In this document: one piece after another, positions 53,394 through 61,935 of the stretch
Layout: the number at the start of each line of letters is the position of its first letter
Numbering within the stretch: the first letter of the stretch is position 1
From: Flavobacterium lindanitolerans
GTDB lineage: Bacteria > Bacteroidota > Bacteroidia > Flavobacteriales > Flavobacteriaceae
Length of the DNA stretch: 64,000 nt
Reading direction: 5' to 3'
NCBI RefSeq assembly: GCF_002846575.1
Contig: NZ_PJND01000007.1
Coordinates: 186,001-250,000, forward strand
The notes under the pieces: model-generated
Database searches by the model: none
Seen by the model: only the letters and a program-made list of their open reading frames with translations
What the model was told of the DNA's origin: nothing
Made by a program: the position numbers and the translations under genes

Positions 53394-53422
53394 AAAATGC
53401 CTTTCGAAATGAAAGGCATTTT
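53394..53422 (+). terminator. terminator of the beta-helix lipoprotein gene
   Basis: Stem AAAATGCCTTTC / GAAAGGCATTTT with a 5-base loop and a T run. It overlaps the possible ATG at 53397 of the next frame, which shows that the true start of that gene is downstream. Confidence 0.85.
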
Positions 53423-53477
53423 TTTTGGTATAATAATTGAAATATGTTTTATATATTTACAATACCAAATCCACGCT

Positions 53478-53819
53478 ATGGCTAAAAAATACTTTTACAT
53501 TATATTCTTCTTCCTGTTCCTTTTCTCTGCAAGAGTTTTGGCTCAAGAGTCAAGGCCGGCGGCTAACGGAAAAACACAGGAAACTACCATCGAAGGTTTG
53601 AGTTTCTATCCAAATCCCGTTAGTAATGGTAAGATTTATATTACATCAAAATCGACTTTAGACAAAGAAATTGCCATTTATGACGTGCTTGGCAAAAAGG
53701 TTTTACAGTCTGTCGTGACTTCAAAAGAACTTAATGTTTCTTCACTTTCGCCGGGCGTTTATATTATAAAAATTAAGGAAGGCGAAGCAACTGCTACTAG
53801 AAAGCTAATAGTCAAATAG
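53478..53819 (+). CDS. minimal T9SS protein: signal peptide plus sorting domain only
   Basis: From ATG 53478 the protein is 113 aa: a signal peptide (residues 1-23, ending RVLAQ), a linker of about 17 residues, and a complete type A T9SS domain (LSFYPNPVSNGKIYI, AIYDVLGKKVLQ, PGVYIIKI, ending ATRKLIVK). No cargo domain is left. A longer frame from 53397 runs through the preceding terminator and is rejected. The sorting domain is the same type as those of the next two genes. Function unknown; it might be a stand-alone surface anchor or a decoy for the secretion machine. Confidence 0.75.
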   Translation: MAKKYFYIIFFFLFLFSARVLAQESRPAANGKTQETTIEGLSFYPNPVSNGKIYITSKSTLDKEIAIYDVLGKKVLQSVVTSKELNVSSLSPGVYIIKIKEGEATATRKLIVK

Positions 53820-53870
53820 TTGTAATTAAATCATCTAAATACATTTAACTATAAATTTACACAGATATTT

Positions 53871-53899
53871 TTGTCTCTGACAAATTGTTTCTATCTTTG
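53871..53899 (+). promoter_or_regulatory. Bacteroidota-type promoter of the lamin-tail T9SS gene
   Basis: -33 TTG at 53871-53873 and -7 TATCTTTG at 53892-53899 with 18 bases between: an excellent match to the phylum consensus, 32 bases before the ATG. Confidence 0.75.
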
Positions 53900-53931
53900 C
53901 AGTACATTTTTATAACAAAAAACAAGTTAAC

Positions 53932-54825
53932 ATGAAAAAACTTTACATTTTATTATCTGTTGCATTTGTATCAGTTTCGGCTTCTGCACAAGTAGTTATT
54001 AGCCAAGTTTATGGTGGAGGTGGAAATAATGGAGCAGTATACACGAACGACTTTATTGAATTATACAATAGAGGAACAGCTCCTCAAAGTTTAAATGGTT
54101 GGTCTGTTCAGTATGCTTCGGCTGCAGGTACATCATGGGCTGTTCAAACCCTTCCAAACGTTACAATACAACCTGGAAAATATTATTTAATTCAGCAAGC
54201 AGCTGGAACAACTCCGGTTGCAGCATTGCCGACGCCAGATTTAGATGGTGTTACATGTGGCTGTACAGTTTCTGGTGGCGCAAGTCCAGCTCCAATACCT
54301 GGCTTTTCAATGGCTGGTACTAATGGTAAAGTTATTTTAGTAAACACAACTGTTGCTGAAACTACTGCTAACCCAACTGGCTCTCAAATAATTGACAAAG
54401 TAGGATACGGAACTGCAAATGGTTTTGAAGGATCTGCTGCTACTGCTGCATTAACAAATTCTACAGCTGCAATCAGAAACAATAATGGTTGTGCAGATAC
54501 AAATGATAATGCTGCTGATTTCACAGTTGCTGCTCCAACTCCTAGAAACTCTGCAACTGCAGCTAACACTTGTAGCTTAGGCATTAAAGACAACGAAATC
54601 GCTGGACTTAAAGTTTACCCAAACCCTGTAACAAACGGAAAGCTATTCATTACTTCAAATGCTAATGTTGAAAAAACAGTTGCTATCTATGATGTATTAG
54701 GAAAACAAGTAGTAAATACAACTGCTACAGAGTCTGTAAACGTTTCTAACTTAAAAGGTGGTGTTTACATCGTTAAAATCACTGAAGAAGGAAAAACAGC
54801 TACTAGAAAATTAGTTATCAAGTAA
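53932..54825 (+). CDS. T9SS protein with lamin-tail domain
   Basis: A 297-aa exported protein. Signal peptide 1-19 (SASAQ); lamin-tail domain about 20-160, with VVISQVYGGGGNNGAVYTND, FIELYNRG and GWSVQYAS as the standard opening; then an Asn/Thr/Ala-rich part and a type A sorting domain about 225-297 (LKVYPNPVTNGKLFI, GVYIVKI, ATRKLVIK). In bacteria LTD domains sit on secreted nucleases and surface proteins, but no nuclease motif is present here. A strong own promoter suggests high expression. Confidence 0.85.
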   Translation: MKKLYILLSVAFVSVSASAQVVISQVYGGGGNNGAVYTNDFIELYNRGTAPQSLNGWSVQYASAAGTSWAVQTLPNVTIQPGKYYLIQQAAGTTPVAALPTPDLDGVTCGCTVSGGASPAPIPGFSMAGTNGKVILVNTTVAETTANPTGSQIIDKVGYGTANGFEGSAATAALTNSTAAIRNNNGCADTNDNAADFTVAAPTPRNSATAANTCSLGIKDNEIAGLKVYPNPVTNGKLFITSNANVEKTVAIYDVLGKQVVNTTATESVNVSNLKGGVYIVKITEEGKTATRKLVIK

Positions 54826-54847
54826 TTAGTTTCTTTCAAAATAATAT

Positions 54848-54871
54848 AAAGCATCCCAATAGGGATGCTTT
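54848..54871 (+). terminator. terminator of the lamin-tail gene
   Basis: Stem AAAGCATCCC / GGGATGCTTT with a 4-base loop, followed by a long T run. Confidence 0.85.
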
Positions 54872-54913
54872 TTTTTGTATTATTGTTTTCTAATCAAAAA
54901 ATATAACAAAAAC

Positions 54914-55702
54914 ATGAGGAAATTTTACATTTTATTACTAGTAGTTTCTTTTGGAAATAGCTACTCCCAAACAACCATATTCACAGAAAATATGGGAAAT
55001 ACAACTGCAACAACTGCTATAGCTTCCCATACCTTTCAAAACAGCAGCCCAATACTCTTTTCAGGTACCGCTGATGTACGAAATACAACTCCATCTGAAA
55101 ACTATGAAGGTGTCTCTGGAAATGGATGCGTTTTTCTGGGAGGAACAACTCCTGCTAAAACTTTTATTATTGAAGGGATAAATACACTTAATTATTCTGA
55201 CCTGACTTTGTCATTTGGACACTATAAAGGAACCAATGCTGGAAGCAATGAATTAACAGTGCAAGTAAGTACTGACGGAACAGCATGGACTCCTTTAACT
55301 TACACAAGACCAACCGGAACAGGAACCTCTTCCTGGATATTGATTACTCCTTCCGGCACAATCCCATCTACATCCAACCTAAGAATAAAATTCGAAAACC
55401 CAATCTCAAATGTCGGATTTAGAATTGATGATGTTAAGCTAACCGGAAATACTTTGGGGATTTCTGAAAATACAATTCCCGGCCTTAAAGTTTATCCAAA
55501 TCCGGTTACCAATGGAAAATTATTTATCACTACTGTGGCTAACGTTGAAAAAACTATTGCTATATATGATGTTTTAGGAAAGCAAGTGGCAAACACAATA
55601 GCTAAAGATTACGTAAATGTTTCTAACTTAAAAGATGGTGTTTATATCGTTAAAATTACTGAGGAAGGAAAAACTGCTACTAGAAAATTAGTTATTAAAT
55701 AA
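54914..55702 (+). CDS. T9SS protein with beta-sandwich domain
   Basis: From ATG 54914 the protein is 262 aa; an ATG at 54875 would add 13 residues including a Tyr/Lys-rich start overlapping the terminator and is rejected. Signal peptide 1-19 (NSYSQ); residues about 20-180 are a jelly-roll-like sandwich (LTLSFGHYKGTNAGSNELTVQ, TSSWILITPSG, GFRIDDVKLTG), as in carbohydrate-binding or choice-of-anchor domains. Its sorting domain (about 190-262) is nearly identical to that of the lamin-tail protein. Ligand unknown. Confidence 0.8.
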   Translation: MRKFYILLLVVSFGNSYSQTTIFTENMGNTTATTAIASHTFQNSSPILFSGTADVRNTTPSENYEGVSGNGCVFLGGTTPAKTFIIEGINTLNYSDLTLSFGHYKGTNAGSNELTVQVSTDGTAWTPLTYTRPTGTGTSSWILITPSGTIPSTSNLRIKFENPISNVGFRIDDVKLTGNTLGISENTIPGLKVYPNPVTNGKLFITTVANVEKTIAIYDVLGKQVANTIAKDYVNVSNLKDGVYIVKITEEGKTATRKLVIK

Positions 55703-55843: not shown

Positions 55844-56206
55844 ATGAAAACAAAACAACTTTATTTGACTACGCTATTAGTAATAACTTCTTATACGGTA
55901 AAAGCGCAAATCGGGAATACTATTTATGGAGTTGAAGCCGGTGACCATATAATAAATGGAAGCCACAATACATATATAGGCTCTAATTCGGGAGGAATAA
56001 ATTACAATAGCAATAACAATGTTTTCATTGGAGATTCATCTGGTTATGAAAGTGAAAACGGCAGTAATAATACCTATCTTGGATATTATTCCGGTCTCAA
56101 TTCTCAAGGGTCTAACAACATATTTCTAGGCAATAAAGCAGGAATGAATGAACTGGCAAGTAACAAATTATACATACAAAAAGTAAATCTGCTTCTCAAA
56201 AAATAA
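55844..56206 (+). CDS. short repeat protein, probably truncated paralogue of the fibre family
   Basis: A 120-aa exported protein: signal peptide 1-21 (TVKAQ), then five 16/17-residue repeats of the N-T-x-I/L-G-x-x-A/S-G type (for example NTYIGSNSGG, NIFLGNKAG). The three longer paralogues nearby continue after the repeats with a conserved 'PLIWGDF' segment and a coiled-coil tail, but this one ends IQKVNLLLKK and stops. Reading one base later after the A-run gives SKSASQKII before another stop, so a frameshift followed by decay is possible. It may also be a real short head-only form. It is 31 bases before the next family member. Confidence 0.6.
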   Translation: MKTKQLYLTTLLVITSYTVKAQIGNTIYGVEAGDHIINGSHNTYIGSNSGGINYNSNNNVFIGDSSGYESENGSNNTYLGYYSGLNSQGSNNIFLGNKAGMNELASNKLYIQKVNLLLKK

Positions 56207-56237
56207 TCACAATCTTTTAACAACAAAACCTAACAAT

Positions 56238-57146
56238 ATGAAATTAAAACAAATAGCAATTCCCGTATTGCTTTTATTTGGGTTAGCTGGACATTCACAA
56301 AATGTAGCCTCAACAGCAAATTTAACGAGTGGCGGCTATCAAGCAGGAACTGCAGGAAATTATAACACTTATTACGGTAGCAATACCGGAGAAAATAATT
56401 CGTCAGGAACAAATAATACATTTTTAGGCAATATTGCCGGAAAAAGCAATACCTCTGGATCACAGAATATATTTATCGGATCACAAAGTGGGTTTCAAAA
56501 TAAAACTGGCACGGGGAACATATATTTAGGACATTATGCTGGAGGAGAAATAGAATCTGGCAATAACAATACATTTATAGGGGCAAATGCTGGAGGCGAA
56601 GCACATGGTTCCAACAATGTTTATATTGGGGCCTATGCGGGTTATTATGAAAATCTTGACAATCAACTCCGAATAAATAACTCTTTCGGAACCACACCTT
56701 TAATTTGGGGCGACTTTAATCTCGATCAGCTAAAATTTAACGGAAAAGTGGGCATTGGAAACGGTTTCGGAAGCTTTCCTTCAACAGCAGGCTCAGTAAA
56801 CGTTTCAAATTACAACCTGTTTGTAAAAGGCGGTATATTGACAGAAGAAGTACGTGTCAATCTTCAAGGTGATTGGGCTGACTATGTTTTTGATAAAAAT
56901 TATAATTTAAAGCCTCTTGAAGAGGTAGAAACTTTTATCAAAGAAAATGGCCATTTAGAAAATGTTCCTTCTGCAAAACAGGTAAAGGAAAACGGTATCG
57001 AATTGGGTGAAATTGCAAAAATCCAACAAGAAAAAATCGAGGAACTCACGCTCTATCTTATCGAATTAAACAAAGAGAATAAGGTGCTGCAGAAAAAACT
57101 GCTTGAATTAGAAGAAAAAATAAACAATTCAAATACCAAAAATTAA
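56238..57146 (+). CDS. repeat fibre-like protein A (YadA-head-like repeats, coiled-coil tail)
   Basis: A 302-aa exported protein. Signal peptide 1-20 (GHSQ), an ASTANLTSGGYQAGT lead-in, six 16/17-residue repeats (about 40-140; consensus N-T-F-I-G-x2-A-G), a conserved middle (PLIWGDF, KFNGKVGIGNGFG, LFVKGGILTEEVRVNLQ), then WADYVF, ENGHLENVPSAKQVKENGIE, and a coiled coil over the last 45 residues. The repeats suggest a left-handed beta-roll, and the coiled coil suggests oligomerisation, as in trimeric adhesin heads and tail fibres. There is no outer-membrane anchor and no sorting domain. The next gene is a close paralogue. Confidence 0.75.
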   Translation: MKLKQIAIPVLLLFGLAGHSQNVASTANLTSGGYQAGTAGNYNTYYGSNTGENNSSGTNNTFLGNIAGKSNTSGSQNIFIGSQSGFQNKTGTGNIYLGHYAGGEIESGNNNTFIGANAGGEAHGSNNVYIGAYAGYYENLDNQLRINNSFGTTPLIWGDFNLDQLKFNGKVGIGNGFGSFPSTAGSVNVSNYNLFVKGGILTEEVRVNLQGDWADYVFDKNYNLKPLEEVETFIKENGHLENVPSAKQVKENGIELGEIAKIQQEKIEELTLYLIELNKENKVLQKKLLELEEKINNSNTKN

Positions 57147-57165
57147 CTGCTTAACTTTTACAATT

Positions 57166-58119
57166 ATGAAACTATCAAAATTTTTAAATCTAGGAATTTT
57201 ATTCTGCACTATTACTGCTTTTTCACAAAATGTAGCTTCAACCGCTACTTTGACAAGCGGAGGCTTAAATGCCGGCACTAATGGAACGGCTAATACATTT
57301 TATGGATACCAAACAGGTAGATATACCGGTACTGGCATAAACAATACGTTCATAGGACATGAATCAGGTCGGGAAAACACAACAGGAAAAAACAATGCTT
57401 TTATTGGCTATCAAGCAGGAGCAAATAACACAATAGGAGCAAATAATACTTTTGTCGGTTCACATTCTGGACAAACTAGCTATAGCGGTTCTAACAATGT
57501 CTATGTAGGTCAGTTTACAGGTGGAGAAAACAATGGCAACTATAATACTTTTTTAGGAATGCTGGCAGGAGGAGACTCACAAGGCTCAAACAATGTATTA
57601 ATAGGAAGTAATGCCGGCTATTCAATGTCTGGAAATGACAAATTATTTATTGATAATACAGACACGGCCAGTCCTCTAATCTGGGGTGATTTTGCCCAAG
57701 ATCAATTAAAATTTAACGGAAAAGTAGGCATTGGAAACGGTTTCGGAAACTTTCCTACAACAGCAGGTTCTGTAAACGTTTCCAATTATAATCTTTTTGT
57801 AAATGGCGGTATATTGACAGAAGAAGTACGGGTCAATCTTCAGAGCGATTGGGCAGATTATGTATTCAGTAAAGATTATGAATTAATGCCTCTTCAAAAG
57901 ATAGAAATATTCATCAAAGAAAATGGCCATTTGCCTAATATGCCTTCTGCAAAACAGGTAAAAGAAGAAGGAATCGAATTAGGGCAGATTGCAAAAATGC
58001 AGCAGGAAAAAATTGAGGAACTGACACTTCATATGATCGAGCAAAATAAAACAATCGAAAAACAGAGTGAAGAAATAAAAGAGCTAAAAGAACTGGTAAA
58101 ACAATTGATAGAAAAATAA
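57166..58119 (+). CDS. repeat fibre-like protein B
   Basis: A 317-aa paralogue of protein A. Signal peptide 1-21 (TAFSQ), the same ASTATLTSGGLNAGT lead-in, seven repeats (NTFIGHESGREN, NAFIGYQAGANN and so on), the same middle block and ENGHLPNMPSAKQVKEEGIE, and a longer coiled-coil tail ending KELVKQLIEK. Nucleotide similarity to protein A is very high from about 57720 to 57850, which shows recent duplication or gene conversion. Its stop is separated from the ATG of the VWA-T9SS gene by a single base, so the two are almost certainly translated together. Confidence 0.78.
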   Translation: MKLSKFLNLGILFCTITAFSQNVASTATLTSGGLNAGTNGTANTFYGYQTGRYTGTGINNTFIGHESGRENTTGKNNAFIGYQAGANNTIGANNTFVGSHSGQTSYSGSNNVYVGQFTGGENNGNYNTFLGMLAGGDSQGSNNVLIGSNAGYSMSGNDKLFIDNTDTASPLIWGDFAQDQLKFNGKVGIGNGFGNFPTTAGSVNVSNYNLFVNGGILTEEVRVNLQSDWADYVFSKDYELMPLQKIEIFIKENGHLPNMPSAKQVKEEGIELGQIAKMQQEKIEELTLHMIEQNKTIEKQSEEIKELKELVKQLIEK

Positions 58120-58120
58120 T

Positions 58121-59452
58121 ATGAAAAAACTATATATCCTTATTTTGTTCCTTACATGTGGCCTTAAAAGCTTTGCACAAGGAACAGATGTCATCTTCTG
58201 GATTGACAATAGTGGTTCAATTGACGACATCGAATACGCTGCTATGAAAGCATCCGTGAGCAATATTATGGCAAATGTCCTTGAATGCAATCCCGATAAT
58301 AAAATAACCGTTATACAATATGCTGCCACGAAAGTTGGAACAAACTTTATTCCTAAAATCAAAATTGAAACTGACTTTACAAACTCGGCTATAAGTTTTT
58401 CCCGTGTTCCTGTGGCTGATGTAGGAAATTATGATTTTGCACATGAATCACTAGGATTGATTGGAAAGGCATTAGACCATATTACAGATTCAAACATACT
58501 TGGAACTTCATTTTTAAACAGAACTTCCGGAAATACATTAGCCATCTATTTCTTTACGGATGCTTTGCGAGATGACCTGACAGGGTCATGTCTTGTAAAC
58601 AAAAACACTATCTTAATCGGATCAAATGGTGCTTTTCAAAACTATACAAATTTCAAGGTTTCACGAAATGCTACATTTATTGTAACAATGGTTCCTAGTG
58701 GTGCAGAAGGTTACATGCCGGGATCTGACTTAAAAGCAAAAAAAGCAGGAGCCGCAATTTCTAGCGGAGGAAATGGAGGAACTTATATCCTTAATGAAAT
58801 AGAGTCTTATCCTTTAGATCCAAATGGTCCTGGCTCATTACCCCGCTTCTTTTTATACAAGCCAAACTTCACATTGACCCCTGTAGAAATCGGCGCTATA
58901 AGCGATCAATTATGCTCTGTTGTTCAAGCTCCCTGTCCACAACATTTAATTCTTACATCTCCGCTTGACGATGTTAACGCTCCAATTCAAGACAATCGTC
59001 AGGCTTCAATTTCAATAACAGCTTCCAACCAAATTAATAAGGAAGCAGTTGGAATATACCATGCGGGAAGCACTCTGGTTTTTAAATCTGGTTTTCATTC
59101 AAAAAACGGCTCCCGATTTAGAGCATATGTTGAGGGATGTTCAGATAAGTTTGTTGGAAGAGAATCTGACATTACTAACAGAAAAGAATTTCAAAAGGAA
59201 ATGAAAGGCACTCAAATTGTTCAAAAACCACTCTTATATCCAAACCCGGCTACACAAAAAGCAACAATAGAATATGACGAACCAATTCATAATCTCCTGA
59301 TTAGTTCTATTGATGGAAGAACAATCTTTTCCAAAATACTTAAAACAAATTCTTATGAAATTGATTTATCCAATTATAAAAACGGAATATATATAGTAAC
59401 GATTCAGACTAGTAACAGAAATATTTTTACTTCTAAACTTATAAAAGAGTAA
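58121..59452 (+). CDS. VWA-domain, 3-coathanger-like T9SS surface protein
   Basis: A 443-aa exported protein. Signal peptide 1-20 (KSFAQ); a von Willebrand A domain about 21-250 with MIDAS residues Asp29-x-Ser31-x-Ser33 (FWIDNSGSI) and FFTDALRDD; a 3-coathanger-like domain about 271-341 (TASNQINKEAVGIYHAG, FKSGFHSKNGSRFRAYV); and a type A sorting domain about 370-443 (LYPNPATQKATIEY). VWA domains with an intact MIDAS bind protein ligands through a metal. With the repeat protein encoded one base upstream, it may be the surface-attached adhesive partner; this is inference. Confidence 0.82.
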   Translation: MKKLYILILFLTCGLKSFAQGTDVIFWIDNSGSIDDIEYAAMKASVSNIMANVLECNPDNKITVIQYAATKVGTNFIPKIKIETDFTNSAISFSRVPVADVGNYDFAHESLGLIGKALDHITDSNILGTSFLNRTSGNTLAIYFFTDALRDDLTGSCLVNKNTILIGSNGAFQNYTNFKVSRNATFIVTMVPSGAEGYMPGSDLKAKKAGAAISSGGNGGTYILNEIESYPLDPNGPGSLPRFFLYKPNFTLTPVEIGAISDQLCSVVQAPCPQHLILTSPLDDVNAPIQDNRQASISITASNQINKEAVGIYHAGSTLVFKSGFHSKNGSRFRAYVEGCSDKFVGRESDITNRKEFQKEMKGTQIVQKPLLYPNPATQKATIEYDEPIHNLLISSIDGRTIFSKILKTNSYEIDLSNYKNGIYIVTIQTSNRNIFTSKLIKE

Positions 59453-59462
59453 TTAAAAACCC

Positions 59463-59488
59463 AAAGGCTCCAGCGTACTGGAGCCTTT
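59463..59488 (+). terminator. terminator after the VWA-T9SS gene
   Basis: A perfect 11-bp stem AAAGGCTCCAG / CTGGAGCCTTT with a CGTA loop. It ends the 55844-59452 unit. Confidence 0.85.
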
Positions 59489-59710
59489 ACTATTATTAAA
59501 AATCGCAAAACGAAATGATTGCTTTTAAAATTAATGTCATTTTGAACAAATACAACCACGCGTTAAAATTTCTTTCCCGAAACTTCGTATAAATATTTAA
59601 AACCCATTTTTTATATTAAAATAACAAATTGCCTCATTTACAGTATTTTAATTATTTTTTTATACTACAAATAGTGTTAATTTTAGGTTAAACCTTAAAT
59701 CAACATTATT

Positions 59711-60640
59711 ATGAACTTAACAAAAACCCTATGCGCAGGATTACTGCTTGGCGGAATTTTTTCTGCAAATTCGCAAAATGTCGCTTCGACTAACTTACTA
59801 ACCAGCGGCGGACTTGATGCCGGAACCGTTGAAAAAGAAAATGCGTTTTATGGCTACCAGGCCGGACGTTTTACCGAAAATGCTTATAATTCCTTTTTTG
59901 GGCATTTGGCAGGCGCTAAAAATGTCTCAGGAGACAGCAACTCTTTTTTTGGACATCAGGCCGGAATCAATAATGGAGAAGGCAGTTCAAATACTTTTAT
60001 TGGTGCAAGTGCCGGATCATATAATTATGACGGAAGACATAACGTTTATGTGGGTTATGCCAGCGGCGCATCAAATCAAGGAAATACAAACACTTTCATT
60101 GGAGCCTATTCCGGTGCAAAAGCTACAGGAGAAGGCAATGTCCTGATTGGAAGCTATGCAGGTTATGGAGAAACGGACAGCAACAAACTTCACATTAACA
60201 ATGCCTATAATGTAACGCCTTTGATTTGGGGTGATTTCTCGGAATACCTTATCAAATTAAACGGAAAAGTGGGTATTGGTAACGATTTTGGTGCATTCCC
60301 AATTTTTGCAGGAGGCTTGGATATTTCGCATTACAGGCTGATTGTAAAAGGCGGCATCCTTACAGAAGAAGTAAGAATCAACCTGCAGGCTGATTGGGCT
60401 GATTATGTTTTCTCTGATAGTTATAAGCTAAAATCTTTGGAAGAAGTAGAGAAATATATTGAAGATAACGGCCACCTGCCAAATGTTCCTTCAGCCAAAC
60501 AAGTAAAAGAAGAAGGAATTGAATTGGGTGAAATCACAAAAATCCAACAGGAAAAGATTGAGGAACTGACACTTTATCTGATTCAGCAGAATAAGGAAAT
60601 CCAGGAGTTAAAAGAAATGGTGAAAAACTTAAAGCAATAA
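59711..60640 (+). CDS. repeat fibre-like protein C
   Basis: A 309-aa paralogue of proteins A and B. Signal peptide 1-22 (SANSQ), ASTNLLTSGGLDAGT lead-in, seven repeats (NSFFGHLAG, NTFIGASAG, NVLIGSYAG), the shared middle (PLIWGDF, KLNGKVGIGNDFG, GGILTEEVRINLQ), ENGHLPNVPSAKQVKEEGIE and a coiled-coil tail ending KEMVKNLKQ. It is more diverged than A is from B. A 258-base gap and a terminator separate it from the previous unit, so it begins a second transcription unit together with the 60643 gene. Confidence 0.77.
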   Translation: MNLTKTLCAGLLLGGIFSANSQNVASTNLLTSGGLDAGTVEKENAFYGYQAGRFTENAYNSFFGHLAGAKNVSGDSNSFFGHQAGINNGEGSSNTFIGASAGSYNYDGRHNVYVGYASGASNQGNTNTFIGAYSGAKATGEGNVLIGSYAGYGETDSNKLHINNAYNVTPLIWGDFSEYLIKLNGKVGIGNDFGAFPIFAGGLDISHYRLIVKGGILTEEVRINLQADWADYVFSDSYKLKSLEEVEKYIEDNGHLPNVPSAKQVKEEGIELGEITKIQQEKIEELTLYLIQQNKEIQELKEMVKNLKQ

Positions 60641-60642
60641 AT

Positions 60643-61935
60643 GTGAAAAATCTATACAGAAAACCAAAAACAGGGCTGCTTATCCTCTTTTGTTTTTTGG
60701 CTGGCTCTTTCCATTCAGAGCTTTATTCTCAAGAACAGATTATATGGGATAATGTGCCTGTAAATACGACGGGGATTACCGCAACATATTCCGGCGGAAC
60801 CCTTAACGTGATGGCTACCGGCACAGGATTGAATATGGTATTCTACAGCATACCTGCCAATCCAACAGTGTTTCAAACTACCGGCGCATGGAATAATGCT
60901 CCTTCCAAAGATTTGACCTTTACCTTTCCGGAGAAAGTAATAATAACCCGGTTTCGGGTGTATGACATCAATTACGGCACCTGGAACGATTCCTTTAGCT
61001 TTTCAAACATTACATTCGGCGGAGTGACTGCATCGGCCGGATGCTGCGCTACAACCAGCGGGGTTACAGTATCAGCCGGAACTCCACCAAATACAGATGT
61101 TCATTGGACCTGTTCTAATGCCATAGACAGCTTTACGATAAATTACGCCAATACCAACGGGACAACACATGCGTATCTGTTTTATACGATGGAAATCCTA
61201 AGGCTACCGTCAATAGGAACGTTATGTTATAACAGTATACCTCCTACTCTGCCTACAACTTTAGGTAATAATATTCAGGGTAGCTGGAGTCCCGCTACTA
61301 TCGACACGAGTGTGGCCGGAACAACCCAATATGTCTTTACACCAAATGGCGGACAGACGATTCAATGTCCGATAGCAATTGATGTCACCGTATTGCCTCC
61401 CGGGCAGCAAAACTGCTGTATTCCCGACATAACATTAACATCACCAACAGACAATGTGGCATCAGGAAATCAGGATAACCGGGAAACCTCAAACACGATT
61501 ACAGCCCACAACACCATCAATTCAGGTGCTGTTGGAGTATATCATGCCAAAAGAACCATTACGCTTAAAAAAGGGTTCTATTCAGCAAACGGCTCCAGAT
61601 TCAGAGGTTATATACAGGGATGTACAGGTACATTTGTAGGAAGAGAATCTCCTGCTGCCGAAACGACAGATCTGAAAAAGCTGATAACCGATACTCCTGT
61701 TACGGAAAAGCTGCTTTTGTATCCAAATCCGGCGACACAAAAAGCCACCATAGAATACCAGCAGCCTATCCGAAACATTCGGGTTACCTCTATTGATGGA
61801 AAAACAATGCTTTCGAAAGAGCTTGACGCTAACTCTTATGAGATTGACCTTGCTAACTATAAAAACGGAATGTATATCGTGACAGTACAAACCGGAGATG
61901 GAAGGACAATTACTTCCAAACTGTTTAAAAAATAG
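60643..61935 (+). CDS. 3-coathanger-like T9SS surface protein with unrecognised N-terminal domain
   Basis: A 430-aa exported protein. It starts at GTG 60643, two bases after the stop of repeat protein C; the ATG at 60641 is out of frame and no other in-frame ATG precedes the signal peptide (TGLLILFCFLAGSFHSELYSQ). Residues about 32-185 are a beta-rich domain I do not recognise (TGITATYSGGTLNVMATG, KVIITRFRVYDINYG). A Cys pair CC at about 256 precedes a 3-coathanger-like domain about 257-328 (NTINSGAVGVYHAK, KKGFYSANGSRFRGYI) and a sorting domain about 358-430. The last two domains match those of the VWA protein. Confidence 0.78.
   Translation: MKNLYRKPKTGLLILFCFLAGSFHSELYSQEQIIWDNVPVNTTGITATYSGGTLNVMATGTGLNMVFYSIPANPTVFQTTGAWNNAPSKDLTFTFPEKVIITRFRVYDINYGTWNDSFSFSNITFGGVTASAGCCATTSGVTVSAGTPPNTDVHWTCSNAIDSFTINYANTNGTTHAYLFYTMEILRLPSIGTLCYNSIPPTLPTTLGNNIQGSWSPATIDTSVAGTTQYVFTPNGGQTIQCPIAIDVTVLPPGQQNCCIPDITLTSPTDNVASGNQDNRETSNTITAHNTINSGAVGVYHAKRTITLKKGFYSANGSRFRGYIQGCTGTFVGRESPAAETTDLKKLITDTPVTEKLLLYPNPATQKATIEYQQPIRNIRVTSIDGKTMLSKELDANSYEIDLANYKNGMYIVTVQTGDGRTITSKLFKK

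Follow-up and report, generated by a model that had tools for sequence, protein, structure and literature searches.

A repeat fibre gene and its type IX secretion neighbour with exchangeable front in Flavobacterium lindanitolerans: a probable two-gene surface module

How could a bacterium display a fibre-like protein that has neither a membrane anchor nor a sorting signal of its own? This question is raised by a locus of Flavobacterium lindanitolerans situated in a stretch of 64,000 nucleotides (contig NZ_PJND01000007.1, positions 186,001 to 250,000; hereafter the window), where six genes on the + strand fill positions 55844-61935. They encode a head-only fragment, three fibre proteins (A, B and C) whose heads are predicted to resemble that of YadA, and two partner proteins (P1 and P2) with a 3-coathanger stack domain (hereafter coathanger) followed by a sorting domain of the type IX secretion system (T9SS). 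The original prediction interpreted the arrangement as a surface module in which fibre and neighbour are paired, and this interpretation is supported here. Gene order, domain make-up, the generality of the arrangement and the presence of different partners beside related fibres are established; that fibre and partner represent one two-gene surface module we consider probable. The locus comprises the following features (aa, amino acids).

Short fibre fragment, 55844-56206, + strand: 120 aa; YadA-like head repeats only, without C-terminal domain (list of open reading frames; profile scan).
Fibre protein A, 56238-57146, + strand: 302 aa; head repeats, C-terminal domain and coiled-coil-like end; extra copy without own partner.
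Fibre protein B, 57166-58119, + strand: 317 aa; residues ~22-186 predicted as YadA-type β-roll; C-terminal helix 272-316.
Partner P1, 58121-59452, + strand: 443 aa; VWA-like at its N-terminus, coathanger 294-341, T9SS type A sorting domain 372-443.
Terminator-like hairpin separating both cassettes, 59463-59488, + strand (reads likewise on the - strand): consensus match only.
Fibre protein C, 59711-60640, + strand: 309 aa.
Partner P2, 60643-61935, + strand: 430 aa, GTG start; N-terminal β domains unlike P1, coathanger 281-328, T9SS type A sorting domain 359-430.

The coordinates agree with the layout originally described: P1 starts 1 base after B and P2 2 bases after C, and B follows A after 19 bases. 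Protein A (60% identical to B, which shares 57% with C) and the short open reading frame, which matches the head profile and gives no match to the profile of the C-terminal domain, were rightly taken as extra copies of the fibre part, and the terminator postulated between the pairs corresponds to the hairpin listed above. Both partners clearly exceed the curated cut-offs for the coathanger (NF045639: 55.6 bits in P1 and 57.3 bits in P2, cut-off 26) and for the sorting domain (TIGR04183: 42.7 and 44.3 bits, cut-off 23), and by the latter they can be regarded as putative T9SS type A cargoes. The tail of P2 also matches the fold of solved sorting domains, which fill its list of fold matches. Among 105 distinct fibre–partner pairs the coathanger directly precedes the sorting domain (median distance 24 aa). 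Coathanger and sorting domain are thus common to P1 and P2, whereas their N-terminal halves do not correspond, just as had been claimed. Less clear is the VWA domain ascribed to P1: a relative at locus L293 passes the cut-off of PF00092 with 26.8 bits, but P1 itself is borderline (23.2 bits, cut-off 23.8). No toxin, RHS or peptidase domain was found in P1 or P2 with Pfam and NCBIfam, and both proteins end in the sorting domain.

In the structure predictions, which comprise single chains only, the repeats of B form the YadA-type β-roll that had been expected from the sequence; the predicted head matches adhesin heads and the model ends in the C-terminal helix. A hydrophobic periodicity of 3.5 residues is only suggestive (permutation P 0.05 and 0.10), and the fibre may be a trimer. 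The repeat proteins had been said to lack any anchor of their own, and indeed neither the YadA membrane anchor family (E ≤ 1) nor a T9SS sorting domain (NCBIfam) was found in A, B and C; the former is also missing in 65 relatives (E ≤ 0.01), and sorting domains of type A or B were found in 0 of 261 fibre-domain genes (local profiles; some genes incomplete). A signal-peptide-like start is found in 104 of 105 fibres by a crude test, and their size ranges from 168 to 1430 aa (some possibly incomplete). One stray VirB5-type match to C reached 13.7 bits (cut-off 346). Head repeats of A, B and C match the virion structural protein phrog_6002 (E 8e-12 to 5e-13), as does the short open reading frame, and also the tail spike phrog_4636; altogether 71 viral models match the fibre model at E ≤ 0.001. 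A scan of viral contigs with patterns from the fibre alignment gave 262 pattern matches and no confirmed relative. On the basis of that scan a phage origin of the fibres was not adopted; the PHROG matches lie in the head repeats, and fibre head and phage proteins may have a fold in common.

Is the adjacency of fibre and coathanger more than coincidence? The genome of the organism (3.72 Mb, 99.93% complete) contains a third cassette, missed by the original prediction, in which a 529-aa fibre is followed after 29 bases by a VWA-coathanger-T9SS protein, the VWA label resting on alignment with P1. In total NF045639 detects three coathangers, each encoded immediately downstream of a fibre gene; the fibre search gives fibres at these two sites (window and third cassette) as well as one more distant match. 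Sorting domains that exceed the cut-off of TIGR04183 number 79, and by comparison of coordinates none of the other 76 genes directly follows any of the eight fibre matches. As 3/3 coathanger genes and 0/76 other sorting-domain genes follow a fibre, the adjacency in this genome is not due to chance. Of the secretion system itself SprA was searched for and found with 2890.8 bits (cut-off 200). Incongruence within the window was tried as a proof of partner exchange and given up, since sorting domains and coathangers give different pictures: the former are 65% identical between P1 and P2 and 38-41% between these and the third cassette, while the coathangers of all three cassettes resemble each other to about the same degree (54-60%). 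A 1089-aa protein (C9, L012:12705-15974), RHS/YD-repeat-like by reading, is encoded ~3 kb upstream of the third cassette; no coathanger was detected in it with NF045639. Elsewhere (contig C8, L013:9900-19121) a repetitive protein of 3073 aa ends in a domain resembling the C-terminal one of the fibres and is followed by eight proteins of ~300 aa that resemble paralogues (L013:1846-9751).

The same order is found far beyond this species. Named genomes were scanned with the fibre alignment, and the 78 loci selected in this way by their fibres, the best among 225 relatives, span Flavobacterium, Paenimyroides, Dyadobacter, Kordia, Flavivirga, Chitinophagaceae, Saprospiraceae and others. The gene next to the fibre, or to the last fibre of a run, encodes coathanger and type A sorting domain in 59 loci, coathanger and type B sorting domain in 2, a coathanger only in 1, a T9SS domain only in 8 and neither in 6; in 2 it lies on the opposite strand. 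A coathanger is therefore next in 62/78 and a coathanger and/or T9SS domain in 70/78. Among other genes of the same loci a coathanger gene is next in 4/477 and a T9SS gene in 43/477. The local profiles had been built on loci of earlier sets and their relatives, and hence curated models were applied to the 70 next genes as well, detecting TIGR04183 in 67, NF045639 in 55 and a Pfam sorting domain in 69. A frequent coathanger–T9SS neighbour with variable N-terminal domain was what the original prediction had anticipated; the opposite outcome, homologues mostly devoid of such a neighbour, did not occur among fibres like these.

The linkage can also be viewed from the coathanger. In samples of 199 genomes of the genus and 149 of the family the domain occurs in 46 and 28 genomes, respectively. 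From 102 distinct listed NF045639 places 87 were examined (5 of the genus, below cut-off, and 10 of the family were left out), and all except 2 could be assigned to an open reading frame. Among the 85 genes 52 encode coathanger plus sorting domain, and 50 of these have a fibre-domain gene directly upstream (48 within 50 bases, 2 farther); one of the remaining two is located at a contig end and one is an exception (L174). Three genes are short and lack a sorting domain, and 30 encode long proteins without it, with RHS_repeat in 5/5 scanned. A fibre-domain gene lies two genes upstream in 8 of the 30, and in 4 of these 8 the intervening gene encodes a small T9SS protein. In a sample of the phylum (296 genomes, 36 with a coathanger match) 20 regions were fetched. 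Thirteen of them (L331-L343) contain 15 coathanger genes (one belonging to the own family); the fibre domain is encoded immediately upstream in 8, one gene farther in 5 and absent in 2; no coathanger was detected in region L344 by the local profile.

An order of fibre-domain gene, small protein of 148-184 aa and very long gene recurs in L141, L143, L150, L172, L189, L191, L204 and L209; the small proteins consist of one YD-repeat-like motif (by reading) and a T9SS sorting domain, and RHS repeats of the long gene were confirmed in L141 only. Two to five fibre-domain genes in tandem, lacking YadA-type heads by the local profile, were observed in L203, L206, L209, L212, L213 and L214, in L212 and L213 upstream of a gene of ~940 aa.

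What is carried by the partners in front of the coathanger differs widely. At E ≤ 0.001 Pfam assigns to the 70 next genes Peptidase_S8 (14), reprolysin-type M12 (8), M43 (6), BNR (6), trypsin-like (4), VWA (4), PKD (4), M36 (2), M64 (1), S46 (1) and other domains, whereby families may overlap within one protein. In five of the 105 pairs the passenger is shorter than 60 residues; those of the remaining 100 form 22 groups with no mutual BLASTP similarity. Ten minimal partners of 182-210 aa carry, according to curated models, a type A sorting domain in five cases and a type B one in five. The variability of the N-terminal domain is thus widespread and, moreover, is seen at a single syntenic position.

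This slot is defined by a marker gene downstream of P2 (62032-63012, + strand; 326 aa), which we take to be a LuxE-like ligase. Its product is 95% identical in F. microcysteis, and it lies downstream of fibre and partner in 14 other loci fetched. Altogether 18 rows, i.e. 15 distinct loci (three genomes were counted twice), have fibre and T9SS partner upstream of the marker, with at least six types of front:

P2 type: window, F. microcysteis.
VWA: L121, L286 (in the window the VWA-type partner is P1).
M64: L112, L258.
Group without Pfam domain in the scanned member: L248, L249, L251, L254, L265.
Subtilase group: L291.
Another group: L158.
Ungrouped: L252.
Partner without detected coathanger: L259.

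Between partner and marker L158 contains a T9SS gene of 124 aa and L248 a second fibre. Three more T9SS type A proteins are encoded at 53397-55702 directly upstream of the fibre genes of the window, and T9SS genes likewise precede the fibre in syntenic slot loci. In an identity test with 14 pairs (L252 and L259 excluded) the nearest relative of a slot fibre is another slot fibre in 12/14, in 6 of these 12 with a different passenger. The mean fibre identity amounts to 0.655 between slot loci with different passengers vs 0.582 between slot and elsewhere with the same passenger, whereas for the coathanger the corresponding values are 0.27 vs 0.338. Since the fibre goes with the slot and the coathanger with the passenger, the comparison favours a putative exchange of the partner including its coathanger beside a resident fibre over arrival of the whole cassette, species relatedness not being removed. 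Retention of the fibre in 15/15 slot loci was discarded as a result, because all loci had been fetched for fibre or coathanger. The marker gene itself occurs in 195/199 genomes of the genus, mostly without a listed fibre match beside it, and among the matches listed marker and fibre lie within 7 kb in five genomes (own, G258, G265, G317 and G333). The slot is seldom occupied; this census limits the argument, and the slot is not the main support of the proposed module.

Several observations weigh against a fixed pair of fibre and partner. In 8 of the 78 fibre-selected loci the coathanger/T9SS neighbour is missing; the next gene runs off the stretch in L274 and L276 and has neither domain in L294 and L298. 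(In these two Dyadobacter loci the next gene overlaps the fibre by 20 bases, and its product of ~380 aa without coathanger or sorting domain presumably resembles a polysaccharide lyase.) Among loci chosen for absence of an over-cut-off NF045639 match nearby, the genus sample has a coathanger/T9SS gene next in 15/45 runs and no T9SS neighbour in 30/45, and in 20 regions of other genera a T9SS neighbour is present in 6/19 fibre-domain genes and absent in 13/19 (2 with incomplete next gene). Because of these lower rates the C-terminal domain of the fibre alone is not tied to the pair; it is commoner than the pair, fibre-profile matches being found in 111/199 genomes of the genus and 72/149 of the family, compared with a coathanger in 46/199 of the genus. 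Head-bearing fibres, in contrast, are mostly tied (56/64 runs of the named set). The long RHS-type coathanger proteins are only loosely linked, with a fibre-domain gene at most five genes upstream in 11/30, a contig end in 12 and none in 7. In a Bacteroidota genome of 7.2 Mb (G527) with 22 coathanger domains, 12 genes were seen in 6 regions (L325-L330). In 10 of these 12 an upstream gene is visible, and none of the 10 has a fibre-domain gene at a distance of up to two genes. In 11/12 genes, some of them in tandem, no more than 11 residues follow the coathanger, and there the domain may act alone as a sorting or anchoring signal. Also in the ten minimal partners the coathanger exceeds the curated cut-off in three only and lies just or clearly below it in two, while in five it is unlisted by the curated model and rests on the local profile. 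Finally, the distances of fibre and coathanger correlate across cassettes (0.298, reached in 0/500 permutations), but the test free of relatedness is weak (814 agreements vs 741 ± 49; 14/200 permutations as high). As the coathanger follows the passenger rather than the fibre at the slot, a matched fibre–coathanger surface is not indicated, and co-evolution was dropped as a proof of contact.

In the two-gene module that we propose, the first gene would give an exported fibre with YadA-type head, connecting domain and C-terminal coiled coil, without membrane anchor or sorting signal. The second gene, probably on the same message, would give a T9SS cargo composed of an exchangeable passenger (VWA, protease, other or none), the coathanger and the sorting domain, by which the T9SS would take the partner across the outer membrane and attach it. 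The C-terminal part of the fibre and the coathanger-plus-sorting part of the partner would bind each other. The partner could thereby hold the C-terminal end of the fibre at the surface, with the head pointing outward for binding, presumably in adhesion, and the passenger working beside it; one export signal would then serve both chains. As to how this is accomplished, we tentatively suggest a two-partner type IX secretion, a possibility about which we have some doubts: the signal-free fibre would be exported bound to its neighbour, or captured outside by it, via the coathanger–sorting part, one signal exporting and anchoring both, and the partner (proteases, VWA, RHS) being exchanged as a unit. 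Joint passage is possible in principle since, according to the excerpts of PMC9251779, the T9SS pore passes folded proteins; capture of the fibre at the surface after another exit route is equally conceivable.

If fibre and partner were independent surface proteins sharing only their expression, the fibre leaving the cell otherwise and not binding its neighbour, this would account for the many genes with the C-terminal domain of the fibre and no T9SS neighbour, for the weak co-variation within genomes and for a partner that is apparently exchanged, coathanger included, while the fibre stays. Such mere co-expression is nevertheless not very likely, as it gives no reason why precisely the coathanger should mark the neighbour of the fibre: genes with coathanger and sorting domain almost always adjoin a fibre-domain gene (50/52 examined), and in the own genome just the three coathanger-bearing of 79 type A sorting domains directly follow fibres. 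Unlikely is also a role of the fibre as periplasmic escort, i.e. a trimer keeping the partner, often a protease, bound, protected or inhibited up to its export by the T9SS. The signal-peptide-like start combined with the missing sorting signal and the many protease passengers would be in accordance with this idea, but the pair exists also with VWA, other non-protease and nearly passenger-free partners that need no inhibitor, and both the great variation in fibre size and the resemblance to adhesin heads speak against it.

A further explanation is contact-dependent antagonism, with the fibre binding a neighbouring cell and the partner (a protease, or an RHS protein at other loci) acting as effector. 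It is suggested by the coathanger of the long RHS-repeat proteins and by the fibre-domain genes two genes upstream of some of them, and T9SS substrates near TANFOR toxins are reported in the excerpts of PMC7073777. We regard it as very improbable, the linkage to RHS genes being loose and P1 and P2 having no toxin or peptidase domain in Pfam or NCBIfam.

If the proposed module of fibre and partner is correct, it gives a use to the coathanger, a domain named in databases for which no paper was found here, and points to a way in which YadA-type adhesins could be displayed by flavobacteria that dispense with an autotransporter barrel. It would be a clear test case for co-export of a signal-free protein, and many surface proteases and binding proteins of Bacteroidota would be tied to fibres. 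As cargo is recognised by its sorting domain, an exported fibre without one would be missed.

How does this arrangement compare with known systems? As the original prediction had supposed, no described system with this layout was found in open-licence PubMed Central, where "3-coathanger stack" and "GCX_COOH" gave no paper and nothing about a pair of this kind came up when T9SS was combined with YadA, trimeric autotransporters, Rhs polymorphic toxins, co-secretion or piggyback; the YadA match in PMC9950754 proved to be the name of an author, and likewise the excerpts of PMC9251779 contain no co-export by the T9SS, and those of PMC4793230 nothing on a fibre–partner pair. The 3-coathanger stack (NF045639, GCX_COOH) is present in P1 and P2; what is new is its association with a fibre gene. 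Polymorphic toxin systems (RHS, TANFOR) differ by their domains, none of which (RHS or toxin) occurs in P1 or P2. Type V pili (Mfa/Fim) differ as well, the FimA/Mfa1 pilin family not being among the matches of A, B and C at E ≤ 1 in Pfam or NCBIfam. Closest in spirit seems to be Mfa5 of Porphyromonas gingivalis, apparently a VWA–T9SS protein that, resembling P1, serves a surface fibre, the Mfa1 fimbriae. Mfa1 has no YadA head but is a pilin of the lipoprotein type, and we know of no exchange of the VWA part of Mfa5 for proteases. In the excerpts of PMC5445135 Mfa5 is listed as VWA-domain T9SS cargo, and a title cited there concerns the role of Mfa5 in Mfa1 fimbria expression.

With T9SS type A cargoes such as gingipains, RemA and mirolase P1 and P2 share the TIGR04183 sorting domain, and the tail of P2 matches solved ones; they differ by the coathanger directly before it and by the fibre gene upstream. 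Known T9SS cargoes are exported and anchored for themselves. One protein holding another at the surface, as proposed here, is the principle of SprB/SprF and PorP-type pairs; according to the excerpts of PMC9143113, type A cargo is linked to anionic lipopolysaccharide (LPS), whereas PorP-like proteins presumably retain type B cargo. In SprB/SprF pairs the adhesin is itself the cargo and its companion an outer membrane barrel, whereas here the putative adhesin has no sorting signal and its neighbour is the cargo. The trimeric autotransporter adhesins (YadA, BoaA, AtaA; type Vc) have a YadA-type head β-roll, as is predicted for the fibres described here, but no YadA anchor family was found in A, B and C, and a second, T9SS-secreted protein would supply both anchor and secretion signal. 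Fibre and swappable anchored partner together look like an undescribed modular surface device.

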